64,000 nucleotides of DNA from Acidobacteriota bacterium (GTDB taxonomy: Bacteria; Acidobacteriota; Terriglobia; Acidiferrales; UBA7541): contig QHYI01000119.1 in the NCBI GenBank assembly GCA_003223245.1, positions 1 to 64,000 of the forward strand. The letters run 5' to 3'. The notes under the pieces are model-generated. The model saw only the letters and a list, made by a program, of their open reading frames with translations. It searched no databases and had not been told where the DNA came from. Shown here piece by piece: positions 21,817 to 27,334 of this stretch (position 1 is its first letter; every line of letters starts with the position of its first letter). The position numbers and the translations under genes are program-made.

Positions 21817-23709
21817 TTAAAAATTCCTCTTACCGTCTATGGCTTCTCGCCAACTGATTCGAACGATATTGGAATAGGCCGATTCTCCAGCGTCGTTGAA
21901 GGCGCGAACGCGATACCCGACGGATTTTCCGCGCGGGGCGCTGGAATCCGCGTATTCGGTTGTTGCCGCGGGGAGCCGGGCGAGTCTCTCCCAATTCCCG
22001 CGGTGGCCCGAACCAGAGTTTTCGACGATCTGCCGCTCGACAATGACGCCTTTACTTTCCTCGTGGACCGCCCAGGTAAGTTTGAGAGAGCTCTCGGTGG
22101 GAACGACGTTCAGAGAACTGGGAGCTTCGGGCAGAACGGGCCAGTCAAAATAATTCTCGTCGGCAATGGCCATCACGCTATCGCCGAGGGGCAGCGCCTC
22201 GAGGGTATCGGTTGTGCCTTTCTTCCAAGTCACTCGCTTGATTTCTCCGCAGACGACATCGATTAAAACAGGATGCTCGATCCCCGTGTTTTTGAGCGTG
22301 AGATTCGAAGAGAGCGCAGGAAAAACGTTGCCCGGAGAGCTCTGGCCTGCAAGCCAGTACGCCACGATGGCTTTCCCGGAGGCGGAGCGAAAACCGTATG
22401 CCAGAAACGGATAATCGCCACGAAATTGCGCCGGCACCTCAGACCCAGCAATCTCGATCGATGGATCGAATTTTGTCTCAGAGAAAAGAGCATTGGTGTT
22501 TTGGAGTGCGCCGAAGACGGCGCGCGGAGTGAAATCGGTTTCCTGATACGTCAATCCGTGGATAACGCCGAAGTCGTCGTATTCGTTGCCGTCGGTTCCC
22601 GCAGTGAGGAGCCAAACGAAAGTTTTGACACCTGCAGCCAGATTGTAGAGGAGGCCTCGAGGAACATATTTCGCTTGGACAGATTCGTCGGAGCCTTGCC
22701 AGGATGGGATGGAATTAAACTCGTCATCAAAAAAGGGGATTTCGGCACGAATCCCCGAGTAGCCCCTGACGAACTGGCGCAGAGTCTTTGGAGATTCCTT
22801 CCCGTACGCACCGGAGTCCATCGTTTCGGGATGCAGATTCCGGCCATAGCCGGGATAGGTGTGATAGGCATAGACGTCGATGCCGGAAGCGCACTGACAA
22901 CTGTCCAGCGCGCGCTGAGTGAAGTCCCTGGTGGGATCCGCTTGGGCTCCGTAAATGACTTTCGCTTCTTGATCGGCCTCATGAACGGTTTGTACAAAAG
23001 ATTTCAGCAGCCGGCCATATTCTTCGGGATCTGGAACGGGATTCCAGTAATCGATGTCCTGCTCATTCCACAGAGCCCAGTAGGAAACGCGCCCGCGAAA
23101 ATGCTCTACCATCCATCGCGCGTAGCGGCTGAAAGCGGCGATTTGCTCCGGCGTTTTTGGCGGCCAAAAGATTGAGTAAAGGCTGCGGTCGGGGTTGTGA
23201 AAAGAACCCGGCGCGGGAACACTCGCGTCTGGAAGTTTTCCGCAGGGCGAAGTATACATGGCGTTTCCGTATAACAGCTGGACCTGGATGAGCACACCGT
23301 TATCGACAAGCGAATCTACATAATCTTCTAGCTGCTCTGGAACAGAGAAGACGCCGCGCTTTTGCTCGACCCAATCCCAGCTGGTCCTGTCCGAGCTGTT
23401 CTCATATTGGCCGATGCGGATCCATTTGAAACCCGCATCAAACATGCGCGTCCACCAGCGCCGATTCCAGGGCAGGTATGGGTCACGCGGAAGGTCAGAG
23501 TTGATTCCGAAGCCATCTCGGATTTGCGAAGATCGCTTGGGAGGAACGTGGGACGGCAGGGCTTTGATTTCCTCATTACCGGAAACCGCAGAAGCCGTTA
23601 GGAGAATGGTGAATACGAGGAACACGCAAGCACGACCGGCATGCCGCTGCTTGCGGCTGCGCCCCGACCTGAGAATGCTCTTGCTGAGAGCGCTAAATCG
23701 AGTGCTCAT
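21817..23709 (-). CDS. Secreted clan GH-A glycoside hydrolase-like protein with C-terminal fibronectin-III-like domain
   Basis: About 630 residues from ATG 23709; a GTG at 23727 is possible. An N-terminal hydrophobic segment (CVFLVFTILLTASAVSG, 28-44) should export it. The TIM-barrel (about 60-440) has the clan GH-A acid/base motif WNEQ (E216) after strand 4 and a probable nucleophile E330 in PFFDDEFNS after strand 7, resembling GH39/GH5-like proteins. A beta-sandwich region follows, and residues 520-620 look like a fibronectin type III domain (APSSLNVVPTESSLKLTWAV ... YRVRAFNDAGESAYSN). It probably acts on extracellular or envelope polysaccharide; the family number and substrate are not certain. 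It heads a three-gene leftward operon. Confidence 0.82.
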   Translation of the reverse strand: MSTRFSALSKSILRSGRSRKQRHAGRACVFLVFTILLTASAVSGNEEIKALPSHVPPKRSSQIRDGFGINSDLPRDPYLPWNRRWWTRMFDAGFKWIRIGQYENSSDRTSWDWVEQKRGVFSVPEQLEDYVDSLVDNGVLIQVQLLYGNAMYTSPCGKLPDASVPAPGSFHNPDRSLYSIFWPPKTPEQIAAFSRYARWMVEHFRGRVSYWALWNEQDIDYWNPVPDPEEYGRLLKSFVQTVHEADQEAKVIYGAQADPTRDFTQRALDSCQCASGIDVYAYHTYPGYGRNLHPETMDSGAYGKESPKTLRQFVRGYSGIRAEIPFFDDEFNSIPSWQGSDESVQAKYVPRGLLYNLAAGVKTFVWLLTAGTDGNEYDDFGVIHGLTYQETDFTPRAVFGALQNTNALFSETKFDPSIEIAGSEVPAQFRGDYPFLAYGFRSASGKAIVAYWLAGQSSPGNVFPALSSNLTLKNTGIEHPVLIDVVCGEIKRVTWKKGTTDTLEALPLGDSVMAIADENYFDWPVLPEAPSSLNVVPTESSLKLTWAVHEESKGVIVERQIVENSGSGHRGNWERLARLPAATTEYADSSAPRGKSVGYRVRAFNDAGESAYSNIVRISWREAIDGKRNF

Positions 23710-23771
23710 GAAAGTCTCGAGTGACACGGAAAAATCACGCGTATCCTAACACGACTCTTGCGCGCTACGAG

Positions 23772-24002
23772 TCACTGGCGGCGTTTCGTGTGGAAGTGCG
23801 GGAGAACTTTTTCACCGAAGAAGCGAGCTTGCTGAAGACGGTCATCGCCCCACAGTTCCAGCATCATCTGCGTGCAGCCTGCGGCGTAGTATTCCTCCAG
23901 TTTCTCGATGCATTGCCTGGGTGAGCCGGCAATGGGACAAACCTTATCGAGCGTCGCATCGGAAACCGCGCGCGCGGCCGCCTTACGCCCGCCTTTTGGA
24001 CG
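23772..24002 (-). pseudogene. C-terminal remnant of an LLM-class (flavin/F420-dependent) oxidoreductase
   Basis: Reading leftward from about 24002 to a TGA at 23772-23774, one frame gives CPIAGSPRQCIEKLEEYYAA, then GCTQMMLELWGDDR and FFGEKVLPHFHTKRRQ. This matches the usual end of luciferase-like (LLM) oxidoreductases: the IAGSP..C.EKL phosphate-loop region and a final helix. Only about 75 residues are left of an expected 300-350; no catalytic N-terminal part is present. Upstream it joins an Oar-receptor remnant on the same strand. F420 genes lie next door, so the lost enzyme may have been F420-dependent. The likeness was judged by eye. Confidence 0.7.
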
Positions 24003-24429
24003 ACCGTGCTGACCTGCGTTCTCGCGGGTTCCTGCAGCTCCGAGGTCGCTTCTACCCGGACTTTTTGTTCCATGCTCCCAGGAGTCAGCGTAAAGTTCAG
24101 TTTCGCGGCTTGTCCCACTTGTAGGGTGATTGTTTTAGTCTGCTTCCCAAAACCGCTATAAACTGTGGAGACCGAATATTCGCCCGCGGGAAGCGCGGGA
24201 TCGTATATTCGCCGGCGTCGGACGCCTGCACCGACCGCAAGAATCCCGTGGCGGTGTTGGTCGCCGTGACGGTAGCTTTGGCGATGCTTGCCCCTGAGGA
24301 ATCAACTACCTTTCCGGACAACGTCGCGTTCACCGCTTGGCCGTACGAGCTTGAAAGAGGAAGGAATGCGAGCCCAAGAATCGCGAGACCAAACAAGAGC
24401 TGCAGACAGACAAACGTTTTCTTGCTCAC
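24003..24429 (-). pseudogene. N-terminal remnant of an Oar-like TonB-dependent receptor
   Basis: A GTG at 24429 starts a signal peptide (LLFGLAILGLAFLPLSSSYG) and a carboxypeptidase-regulatory-like domain (ATLSGKVVDSSGASIAKATV, ending SDAGEYTIP). At about 24195-24198 one base is missing. Restoring it gives ALPAGEYSVSTVYSGFGKQT, then QVGQAAKLNFTLTPGS and EPARTQVSTVV, the normal lead into the plug domain. The receptor sequence then stops near 24003, where the LLM-oxidoreductase remnant begins. About 130 of some 1,050 residues survive, so the gene is dead by both a frameshift and a truncation. The intact receptor at 59323 shows what the full-length form looks like. Confidence 0.75.
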
Positions 24430-24667
24430 TCCACACCCCCGCCAACCTAAGAAGAAAGGAAGAACTGCGCTGCAGCCTCGTGCGGTCCACCTAACGTGTC
24501 AAGGGAGTGCTAACTTGCAAACTTAGCTTCAAAAAATCGTCCGTACTCACTACTATTGCCTGACCAAAGCAGTGCCGTGGAGCAAACGAGCGGGAATCTT
24601 TGCGACCTGCAAGCTATCAAGAATTCAGTTTTTTACTGGAACCTCGCAACTTAGGACTTAAAACTCC

Positions 24668-25339
24668 TTGAGCAGAAAAATTGCAATTGTCGGTGGGACA
24701 GGACCGGAGGGTTCCGGACTCGCTGCGCGCTGGGCTGCCGCCGGTGAGCACATCGTTATTGGCTCCCGCGATGCCAACCGCGCCGCAGAAACCGCCAAGC
24801 TCCTGCGCGCCCGCCTTGGCAGAAACGTCGAGATCGAAGGTACGGAAAACGCCACGGCGGTCGCTCAATGCGAAGTCGTGGTGCTGACCGTTCCCTTCTC
24901 CGGCCACGCTGCGCTGTTGAAGCAACTCAAACCGCACTGGAAACCAGGCCAAATTCTCATGGACACGACCGTGCCGCTTGCTGCTTCCGTCGGTGGGTCA
25001 CCTTCCCAAATGCTGAGCGTGTGGGAAGGCTCTGCCGCCCAGCAAACGCGCCAACTTGTCCCTTCCTCGGTAGCCGTTGCTGCCGCGTTTCACAATGTAA
25101 GTGCCGCAGCACTTGCGCAGAGCGGGCCTGTCGATTGCGACATTCTCGTTTGCAGCGATGACGATGAAGCCAAGCGTGTCACAAGCGAATTGGCTGAGAA
25201 AATTTCCGGAGCCCGCGCGCTGAACGGCGGAAAACTTGAAAACGCCCGCATCGTCGAATCCCTCACGGCTCTTTTGATCGGCCTCAACATCCGCTACAAA
25301 GTCAACACCGCCGGCATTCGTTTCACCGGCTTGCCCTGA
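24668..25339 (+). CDS. npdG: F420H2:NADP oxidoreductase (NADPH-dependent F420 reductase)
   Basis: 223 residues from a TTG at 24668. The Rossmann N-terminus is characteristic: KIAIVGGTGPEGSGLAARWA (dinucleotide loop), then IGSRDANRAAETA for the NADP 2'-phosphate region. LMDTTVPLAA and VAAAFHNVSAAAL are F420-reductase landmarks, and the C-terminus KLENARIVESLTALLIGLNI is typical. It transfers hydride between NADPH and the deazaflavin coenzyme F420. It is convergent with cofG, an F420 biosynthesis gene, and lies beside an LLM-oxidoreductase remnant, so the assignment rests on both sequence and context. Confidence 0.88.
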   Translation: MSRKIAIVGGTGPEGSGLAARWAAAGEHIVIGSRDANRAAETAKLLRARLGRNVEIEGTENATAVAQCEVVVLTVPFSGHAALLKQLKPHWKPGQILMDTTVPLAASVGGSPSQMLSVWEGSAAQQTRQLVPSSVAVAAAFHNVSAAALAQSGPVDCDILVCSDDDEAKRVTSELAEKISGARALNGGKLENARIVESLTALLIGLNIRYKVNTAGIRFTGLP

Positions 25340-25384
25340 TTCGCGAAGGGCTTACCCTGAGCCTCGAAGGGCCTGCCGCTGTAG

Positions 25385-25410
25385 CTCAGGCCTCAGCCCT
25401 GAGAGTTTTT
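25385..25410 (+). terminator. Probable intrinsic terminator after npdG
   Basis: ctcagg (25385-25390) pairs with cctgag (25398-25403), followed by ag and five T's (25406-25410). It overlaps the last codons of the convergent cofG. The short stem makes it only moderately convincing. Confidence 0.45.
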
Positions 25411-26619
25411 GCCGTTAGCAAATCCGTCAGGGCCAGCTAGCGCATTCATCTTCTCGCGCACGCGCGGCGAAAGAAATCCCTCTCGCCCCACAAATTCCGG
25501 ATACACCGCCAATCTTTCCCGCAGCACAAAACCTTTCGCTTCGGTTTCCCGCCGCAGCCGCGAAATCTGCGGCCACGCCGCCTCGGGGTTGATGAAATCC
25601 TTCGTCACCGGCGAAATCCCGCCCCAATCGTTGATTCCGGCATCGAGAAGCCGCGGAAAATCGTGATAACTCAAATTCGGCGGCGCTTGCACATTCATTT
25701 CCGGCCCCAGAATCAGCCGCGCCACCGCAATCGTCTTCAAAAACTCTTCGAGAGAAGGCTCGGCGTGCTGCGCCATGGGAATGTCCGGTTTGGCCCGAAA
25801 ATTTTGAACGATCACTTCCTGGATGTGCCCGTATTTTTCGTGCATCGTGCGGATCGCCAGCAGCGAATCGACGCGCTCTTCCAGCGTTTCCCCGATGCCA
25901 ATCAGAATGCCCGTAGTAAATGCAATCGCGCGCTTCCCCGCCTCTTCCATCGTACGCAACCGCAACGAAGGAACCTTATCCGGCGCATTCGCATGCGGCA
26001 AGCCATCGCGCATCAGCCGCAAACTGACATTTTCCAGCATCAACCCCACGCTCGCGTTCGATTCCTTCAGTTTGTCGAGCACGGCGCCGTCCATCACTCC
26101 CGGATTCGCATGCGGCAGCAGCCCCGTGCGTTCCAGCACCAACTCGCACATTGCCGCCAAATAATCGAGCGTTCGCGCGTAACCTTGCCGCCGCAAAAAT
26201 TCCCGGGCCTCTGGAAAAATCCGCTCCGGCTGATCCCCTAAACTAAACAGCGCCTCTTTGCAACCCGCGCGTTGCCCTTCTTCGGCCAGCGCCAGCACCT
26301 CCTCCGGCGTCATGAAGTGCGCGCCCGGCTGGCCTGGATCCTTTCGGAATGTGCAGTACGAACAATAGTCGCGGCACAGTGTTGTCAGCGGAATGAACAC
26401 CTTCTTCGAGTAGCTGATTGTTTCCCCTTTTCCCTGCTCGCGTACCTCCCTCGCCGCTTGCAGCAATTCGTCCAATAAAGCGTTTGTCGCTAACGCCAGT
26501 GCCTCTTGCCTTTTCAGGCCCTGGCCTTCTATTCTTTCTTGCAATCCTGTGGCGGCCATTTTTGTGGCCCACTCTAACGCCGTCTCCGCCTTCCTGCTTG
26601 CAATCCCTTGCCTCATCAT
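25393..26619 (-). CDS. cofG: 7,8-didemethyl-8-hydroxy-5-deazariboflavin synthase subunit CofG
   Basis: 408 residues from ATG 26619. This radical SAM enzyme, with CofH, builds the deazaflavin chromophore (Fo) of coenzyme F420. The 4Fe-4S motif CxxxCxxC is C82-C86-C89 in LTTLCRDYCSYCTF, and family segments follow: SLGDQPERIF, LLPHANPGVM, ASVGLMLENVS and a C-terminal DAGINDWGGISPVTKDFINP. CofH is not in the window, and this chain is too short to be the fused FbiC type. The start codon overlaps the vapC stop (atgatga), so cofG appears to be translated from the vapBC transcript. The first 40 residues before the barrel are helical and not strongly conserved. Confidence 0.93.
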   Translation of the reverse strand: MMRQGIASRKAETALEWATKMAATGLQERIEGQGLKRQEALALATNALLDELLQAAREVREQGKGETISYSKKVFIPLTTLCRDYCSYCTFRKDPGQPGAHFMTPEEVLALAEEGQRAGCKEALFSLGDQPERIFPEAREFLRRQGYARTLDYLAAMCELVLERTGLLPHANPGVMDGAVLDKLKESNASVGLMLENVSLRLMRDGLPHANAPDKVPSLRLRTMEEAGKRAIAFTTGILIGIGETLEERVDSLLAIRTMHEKYGHIQEVIVQNFRAKPDIPMAQHAEPSLEEFLKTIAVARLILGPEMNVQAPPNLSYHDFPRLLDAGINDWGGISPVTKDFINPEAAWPQISRLRRETEAKGFVLRERLAVYPEFVGREGFLSPRVREKMNALAGPDGFANGKNSQG

Positions 26620-27026
26620 CTCCACTCTTCCACCTGTAAACCAGGCACACGCTGGAATTCCTTGCGATTACTCGTTACCAGAACAGCCCCCAAGCTAACC
26701 GCTTGCGCGGCAATGAGGGTATCGAGTGCCCCGATGGGCTGCCCGGCCTGAACGAGGTGAGCGCGTACCTTTCCATACGCGGCCACCACCCTATGATCCA
26801 ACGGAAAAACGTCAAACGGTACAAGGATCATCCTAAGCAGGTGCTCCTCCCGTGCCCGCAAAAGGGGATGGTGTACCGCCCGTATCTCGATGCCATACTG
26901 CAACTCGCAGACGGTCACAATCGAAAGCCCGATCGTACTCTTGCTGTGAGCCACCAGTTTCCGTCGAATCCCAGGTGCGTTCGTACGCAGCAGGTCTAGG
27001 CACACCGTCGTGTCCAGTAGGTACAC
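26616..27026 (-). CDS. vapC: VapC-type PIN-domain toxin
   Basis: 136 residues. The PIN-domain acidic residues are visible: D5 in MYLLDTTVCLDLL, E41 in TVCELQYGIE, and D102 in PIGALDTLIAA; the fourth position is N120 (VTSNRKEF). VapC toxins are Mg2+-dependent RNases that cut tRNA or rRNA and stop translation. It lies five bases after the vapB antitoxin. Its TGA is embedded in the cofG start, which is unusual for a toxin-antitoxin pair. All expected residues are there, so it looks intact. Confidence 0.92.
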   Translation of the reverse strand: MYLLDTTVCLDLLRTNAPGIRRKLVAHSKSTIGLSIVTVCELQYGIEIRAVHHPLLRAREEHLLRMILVPFDVFPLDHRVVAAYGKVRAHLVQAGQPIGALDTLIAAQAVSLGAVLVTSNRKEFQRVPGLQVEEWR

Positions 27027-27031
27027 GCGAC

Positions 27032-27334
27032 TTATTCCTTTTCCTCACGAAAAGATTCTTCCAGCCCGCGCCTCTTGTGCTGCCGCTGATCCCGTGCCAA
27101 CTTAAAATTGTGGGGCAATTCATCAAGTGCTGCAAAGAGTCCTTTCCAGCGATCCGCCGTCTTGGGAATCAGCAGGATGCCGTCGCCGAGGCGCTTGACA
27201 TAAACGCTTTCGCCCGGCACTCGGTACTCTTTCGGGAGTCGTACCGCCTGGCTTCTTCCCGTCATGAATACCTTGGCCTCCGCTGTCCTGCGAACCTCTG
27301 GCGGCACCGCCTTTTTGCTTGTTGTGCCTGCCAT
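27032..27334 (-). CDS. vapB: VapB-type AbrB-fold antitoxin
   Basis: 100 residues with GGGAGGGG two bases before the ATG. Residues 20-60 form a swapped-hairpin AbrB/SpoVT domain (AKVFMTGRSQAVRLPKEYRV ... VYVKRLGDGILLIP), which binds DNA, and the charged C-terminal tail should bind and block VapC. The first 18 residues are an Ala/Pro/Lys-rich extension. A 12-bp direct repeat upstream (27368-27393) is the likely operator for autorepression. Confidence 0.9.
   Translation of the reverse strand: MAGTTSKKAVPPEVRRTAEAKVFMTGRSQAVRLPKEYRVPGESVYVKRLGDGILLIPKTADRWKGLFAALDELPHNFKLARDQRQHKRRGLEESFREEKE

Follow-up and report, generated by a model that had tools for sequence, protein, structure and literature searches.

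The segment at positions 23772–24429 of the window (the whole stretch of DNA analysed here, 64,000 nucleotides) is very probably the scar left by the loss of a gene block of 15–17 kb. It holds the front of an Oar-type receptor gene and the tail of an LLM-class oxidoreductase gene, set end to end on the minus strand. Five genomes of the same genus (G024, G012, G008, G018 and G030) have collinear flanks and carry both genes at full length. In these relatives, the two genes are the first and the last of a same-strand block and lie 15.4–16.9 kb apart. They are thus not neighbors but the ends of a block, and nine further genes are gone from the window. The coordinates of the relics, the junction and the flanking genes are given in Table 1.

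Table 1. Features of the scar and its flanks, in positions of the window
Feature	Position	Strand	Evidence
Intact gene directly downstream of the LLM relic, left flank	21817..23727	-	Weak glycosyl hydrolase 1 match only, E 0.047
LLM-class oxidoreductase 3' relic, 74 codons and stop	23772..23997	-	Translation; Pfam; NCBIfam; orthologues in relatives
Junction of the proposed deletion	23997..23999	-	Base-by-base comparison with five relatives
Oar-type receptor 5' relic (carboxypeptidase-regulatory domain / TonB-type)	23999..24429	-	Translation; Pfam PF13620 in two pieces; blastn; alignment to relatives
One-base frameshift in the Oar relic	between 24196 and 24197	-	Alignment, relative to all five relatives; frame change also in translation
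npdG (NADPH-dependent F420 reductase), intact, right flank	24668..25339	+	TIGR01915, E 7.8e-72, over cut-off; conserved in relatives
cofG (F420 precursor biosynthesis), intact, right flank	25393..26625	-	TIGR03550, E 7.1e-141, over cut-off; blastn

Two relics and the junction between them

The Oar relic starts at GTG 24429, and the stretch next to it looks like a signal peptide when the minus-strand translation is judged by eye. The relic comprises approximately 143 codons, against 1040–1108 codons for the full gene in the five relatives, and it ends at about residue 146 of the G024 protein. Using Pfam, we matched the piece before the frameshift to positions 1–43 of PF13620 (E 6.3e-10, over the cut-off) and the piece after it to positions 47–82 (E 3.9e-5, alone under the cut-off). 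The two pieces, in two frames, therefore cover one domain together. Oar-type receptors combine PF13620 with a barrel (PF25183 or PF00593). The relic likewise retains PF13620 almost whole, with the start included, but it is frameshifted and lacks the plug and the barrel. The outer-membrane barrel that is absent from the relic is found, together with PF13620, in the G024 orthologue (PF25183, E 7.6e-91). The first-pass annotation had read, leftward, an Oar-like front with a signal peptide and a regulatory domain and a one-base frameshift near 24196; the Pfam matches and the alignment to the five relatives bear this out. When the Oar protein was used as a query against the genome of the window (G000), 104 matching stretches were found at E ≤1e-5. 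These are stretches and not genes, with the scar pieces counted in, and they show that the Oar family is greatly expanded in G000.

The frame of the LLM relic ends at the TGA at 23774–23772. In Pfam, this tail aligned with the final 40 positions of PF00296 (Bac_luciferase) at E 5.4e-5, which falls short of the cut-off. The full-length domain is present in the G024 orthologue and is not in the relic, which is without approximately 287 of the 361 residues of an LLM-class oxidoreductase. In NCBIfam, LLM families rank first, with TIGR03885 (FMN-type, 1.1e-5) ahead of TIGR03842 (F420-type, 1.7e-4), all under their own cut-offs, as is expected for a fragment. A phmmer search of solved structures gave one match below 0.001, to 1ezw (E 3.8e-4), a methylenetetrahydromethanopterin reductase that depends on F420. 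In a set of 61 genomes that included that of the window, 16 matched the tail at E ≤0.001. The tail is 81–90% identical in amino acids to the LLM genes of the five same-genus genomes, and on this sequence comparison, the orthology is the decisive evidence for its identity. The G024 orthologue is nearest to models of 5,10-methylenetetrahydromethanopterin reductase (TIGR03555, E 1.1e-42, under the cut-off). Judging by the family and by the nearby npdG and cofG, the intact LLM enzymes would use F420. The proposed luciferase-like tail thus holds at the level of both families and orthologues, in a frame (23772–24002) that could have been without any LLM similarity, though its length is 74 residues and not the 75 first counted.

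Base-by-base comparison with the five relatives resolved the junction. The sequence is Oar-like through 23999 and LLM-like from 23997, with one base (23998) between them. Positions 23999 and 24000 agree with Oar in all five relatives, and 23996 and 23995 agree with LLM in all five; 23997 agrees with LLM in four, and 23998 matches neither parent in any of them. By blastn, the left arm ends at 23996 or 23997 and the right arm begins at 23999–24003. The switch originally placed near 24003 was therefore right to approximately five bases. The two relics are both on the minus strand, as had been noted, and this is also the strand of the full genes within the relatives' block. Both align to their orthologues without gaps, except for the frameshift.

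The block in related genomes and its absence here

In all five relatives, the LLM gene and npdG are on one contig, 16–18 kb apart, in the same relative orientation as in the window. The bases between the two arms that are missing from the window number 15416, 15440, 15644, 16311 and 16869 in these genomes. The earlier reading had looked for one match to the N-terminus of Oar, a separate one to the C-terminus of LLM, and intact genes at the syntenic site of a relative; PF13620 and PF00296 with the LLM families provide the matches, and the five genomes the intact genes. The regions of six relatives were compared in all. In the sixth, G032, the Oar gene is gone and the contig ends inside the LLM gene.

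The order of the block in G024, from Oar to LLM and on one strand, is as follows: Oar (1075 residues), a 411-residue gene, a 162-residue gene, a Mo-hydroxylase FAD subunit, a Mo-hydroxylase large subunit, ApbA, an M24 protein with a creatinase N-domain, M20, M24, ApbA and LLM. The 411- and 162-residue genes have no Pfam match. The Mo-hydroxylase subunits were typed from the G032 copy, and no iron–sulfur subunit was identified in the block. The large subunit scores nearest to the NCBIfam models of aerobic CO dehydrogenase and of glyceraldehyde dehydrogenase, without reaching either cut-off. The content is not identical across the five relatives, as G018 and G030 have one or two extra reading frames in the block.

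The flanks vary on the left. The gene at 21817–23727 flanks LLM in G012, G024 and G030. In G008 and G018, it is missing from this place, and the LLM alignment instead adjoins a gene for an Fpg/Nei-type glycosylase. On the right, behind cofG, the window encodes a PIN-domain protein (PF01850, E 1e-16) and a protein with a MazE-type antitoxin domain (PF04014, E 2e-8) at 26616–27334 on the minus strand, and their domains suggest that they are likely a toxin–antitoxin pair. This stretch gave no blastn alignment to the regions of the five relatives.

The window is part of a 137,616-base contig. Its assembly totals 6,311,796 bases in 237 contigs, with a completeness of 95.8% and a contamination of 0.3%. 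As a DNA query against this genome, we took 11,300 bases of the G032 block, which extend from within LLM to the region of the 162-residue gene. The query gave two short matches, both on contig C9: one of 270 bases (67%) and one of 37 bases (89%). The matched region encodes a Mo-hydroxylase paralogue (34% identity), which G024, G012 and G008 have besides the orthologue. The protein search for an orthologue of the Mo-hydroxylase large subunit likewise gave a best match of 34%. The LLM protein found the scar (82%) and one match of 22%, and one of the M24 proteins had a best match of 29%. The Oar protein found the scar pieces (68% and 74%) and paralogues of up to 46%, the best-scoring of which was at 40%. 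The two ApbA genes, M20 and the other M24 gene were sought by DNA search, which at 95.8% completeness could miss a moved copy. As far as these searches reach, we rejected a move of the block to another contig, since only the scar and remote paralogues were found.

To place the loss, we used a protein tree of npdG from 12 genomes. The genome of the window groups with G032, G024, G030, G012 and G018 (96/94), and G008 is next (100/98 for the seven). The tree is small, is made from a single protein, and has six of its nine inner branches drawn open. G008 and five of the six other genomes of the tree clade have the block at the site of the scar. The genome of the window is thus nested among block-bearing species, which makes the loss the derived state. 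Across the genus, the block is patchy, because the Mo-hydroxylase large subunit is found at ≥65% identity in 14 of 36 genomes; the fifteenth match is the 34% paralogue in the genome of the window.

How the junction could have formed

The ancestor would have had a one-strand block running from Oar to LLM, between npdG/cofG and a downstream gene. A deletion would have begun approximately 430 bases into the Oar gene and ended 226 bases before the LLM stop, with everything between removed and the ends joined. The first-pass annotation had offered one deletion or recombination between the two genes; the collinear block in five relatives supports the deletion, and the breakpoints give no support to homologous recombination. 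The words common to both breakpoints are 6–7 bases long within 50 bases on either side, in the sequence of the relatives, which stands in for the lost parental sequence. This is the control level, as random pairs have a mean of approximately 6.6 and a maximum of 9–11. Homologous recombination would therefore have nothing to act on, and we rejected recombination between repeats. The genome of the window encodes Ku (PF02735, 169 bits), and this profile responds in one of 14 genomes of the control set. With one unmatched base at the junction, no repeat beyond chance and Ku encoded, end joining of the Ku type is the likely route of the deletion. It resembles the Ku/LigD-type end-joining deletions in bacterial chromosomes, where breakpoint homology is likewise absent; a Ku gene is present here too, and the protein would presumably have taken part in the repair. 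End joining of this sort is placed in nearly a quarter of bacterial species by the account in PMC10932983.

An assembler could also have joined the ends of a block that is present in the organism but failed to bin. The assembly is of the metagenome type, in 237 contigs and 95.8% complete, and the block was found nowhere in it. A 40-base pattern spanning the junction had no match in the collection of genome contigs, which may omit the genome of the window, so the junction is seen in no second genome. We also counted private substitutions. After the frameshift, the Oar relic has 3 silent and 8 replacing changes, and the five relatives taken together have 11 and 13, respectively (Fisher p 0.46). 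The LLM tail has 3 silent and 3 replacing changes, similar to the relatives. Neither relic thus has significant signs of decay. This fits a recent loss, but it would fit an artefact too. However, false joins usually need a common word or a gap, and here no word exceeds chance and positions 23000–25500 are free of N. In five relatives, the sequence on both sides of the join is collinear, and the Oar relic is also frameshifted, though a frameshift alone could be a sequencing error. Because of the lack of a common word and of N, and because of the collinearity, we hold a false join to be very unlikely.

The loss could instead have been stepwise, with Oar and the downstream genes decayed or deleted in several steps and the last step setting the present ends. 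The sister species G032 has its own smaller loss at the same place (approximately 4.4 kb relative to G024), with the rest of the block still there, and the frameshift in Oar could predate the large deletion. Yet a single junction is visible, and both pieces are free of gaps against their orthologues bar the frameshift, so a single large event would suffice. We regard a series of steps, such as several deletions nested within common outer ends, as rather unlikely, and one event would be the simplest reading of the loss.

That the join makes a functional chimeric Oar–LLM protein or peptide is hardly credible, even with both relics on the same strand and the sequence upstream of the Oar gene kept (it aligns to G030 as far as 24516). 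Translation from the Oar start terminates at 24097. A second frame, opening with GTG 24118, runs through the join and gives 84 residues, but not in the LLM frame; the latter offers no start codon until 23867. A scan of 23650–24700 found no sigma-70-like promoter and two terminator-like sites, with 1.3 expected. No fusion can be read, and we rejected the chimera. Both relics are probably untranslated leftovers of the deletion, and the scar is a case of ordinary gene loss. The gene at 21817–23727 is now approximately 0.7 kb behind the old Oar start and not approximately 16 kb, and one might speculate that its expression has changed.

The lost block in other acidobacteria

A query with the G024 LLM protein found 66 loci (L072–L137) in named acidobacterial genomes. 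The order Mo-hydroxylase large subunit, ApbA, M24, M20, M24, ApbA and LLM, on one strand, is kept in 33 of the 35 loci with at least 9.9 kb upstream; the exceptions are L077 and L096. Six of these 35 loci are from sister species, and without them, the count is 27 of 29. Of the 60 loci whose upstream flank spans 1.2 kb or more, 59 have ApbA immediately before LLM. A single locus showed Oar, encoded on the opposite strand, though a 10 kb flank would mostly be too short to include this gene.

In G032, the loss is at approximately 11150–11390 of contig C262 (L069), where Oar and part of the 411-residue gene are gone beside npdG; the remainder of the block continues to where the contig stops. This seems to be a separate deletion.

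A tentative reading, which we consider possible rather than probable, is that the lost block encodes a widely conserved and undescribed acidobacterial pathway. One substrate, perhaps an N-heterocycle or a modified dipeptide, would be acted on in turn by the Mo-hydroxylase, two ApbA-type reductases, three peptidase-family hydrolases (M24 twice and M20 once) and an LLM enzyme of the F420 type, and this clade would have recruited the outer-membrane receptor to take it up. Our searches of the literature found no description of the block and nothing relevant on comparable deletion scars.

On this reading, sister species would have lost the receptor end at least twice, a sign that the pathway may become dispensable where its substrate is unavailable. 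The main use of the scar is that it points to a lost block with a conserved seven-gene core. It is also a clean case of an operon lost from an uncultured lineage of soil acidobacteria, with end points placed to approximately one base. It dates and polarizes the loss, and it accounts for two odd fragments of genes that would otherwise go unnamed in annotation.
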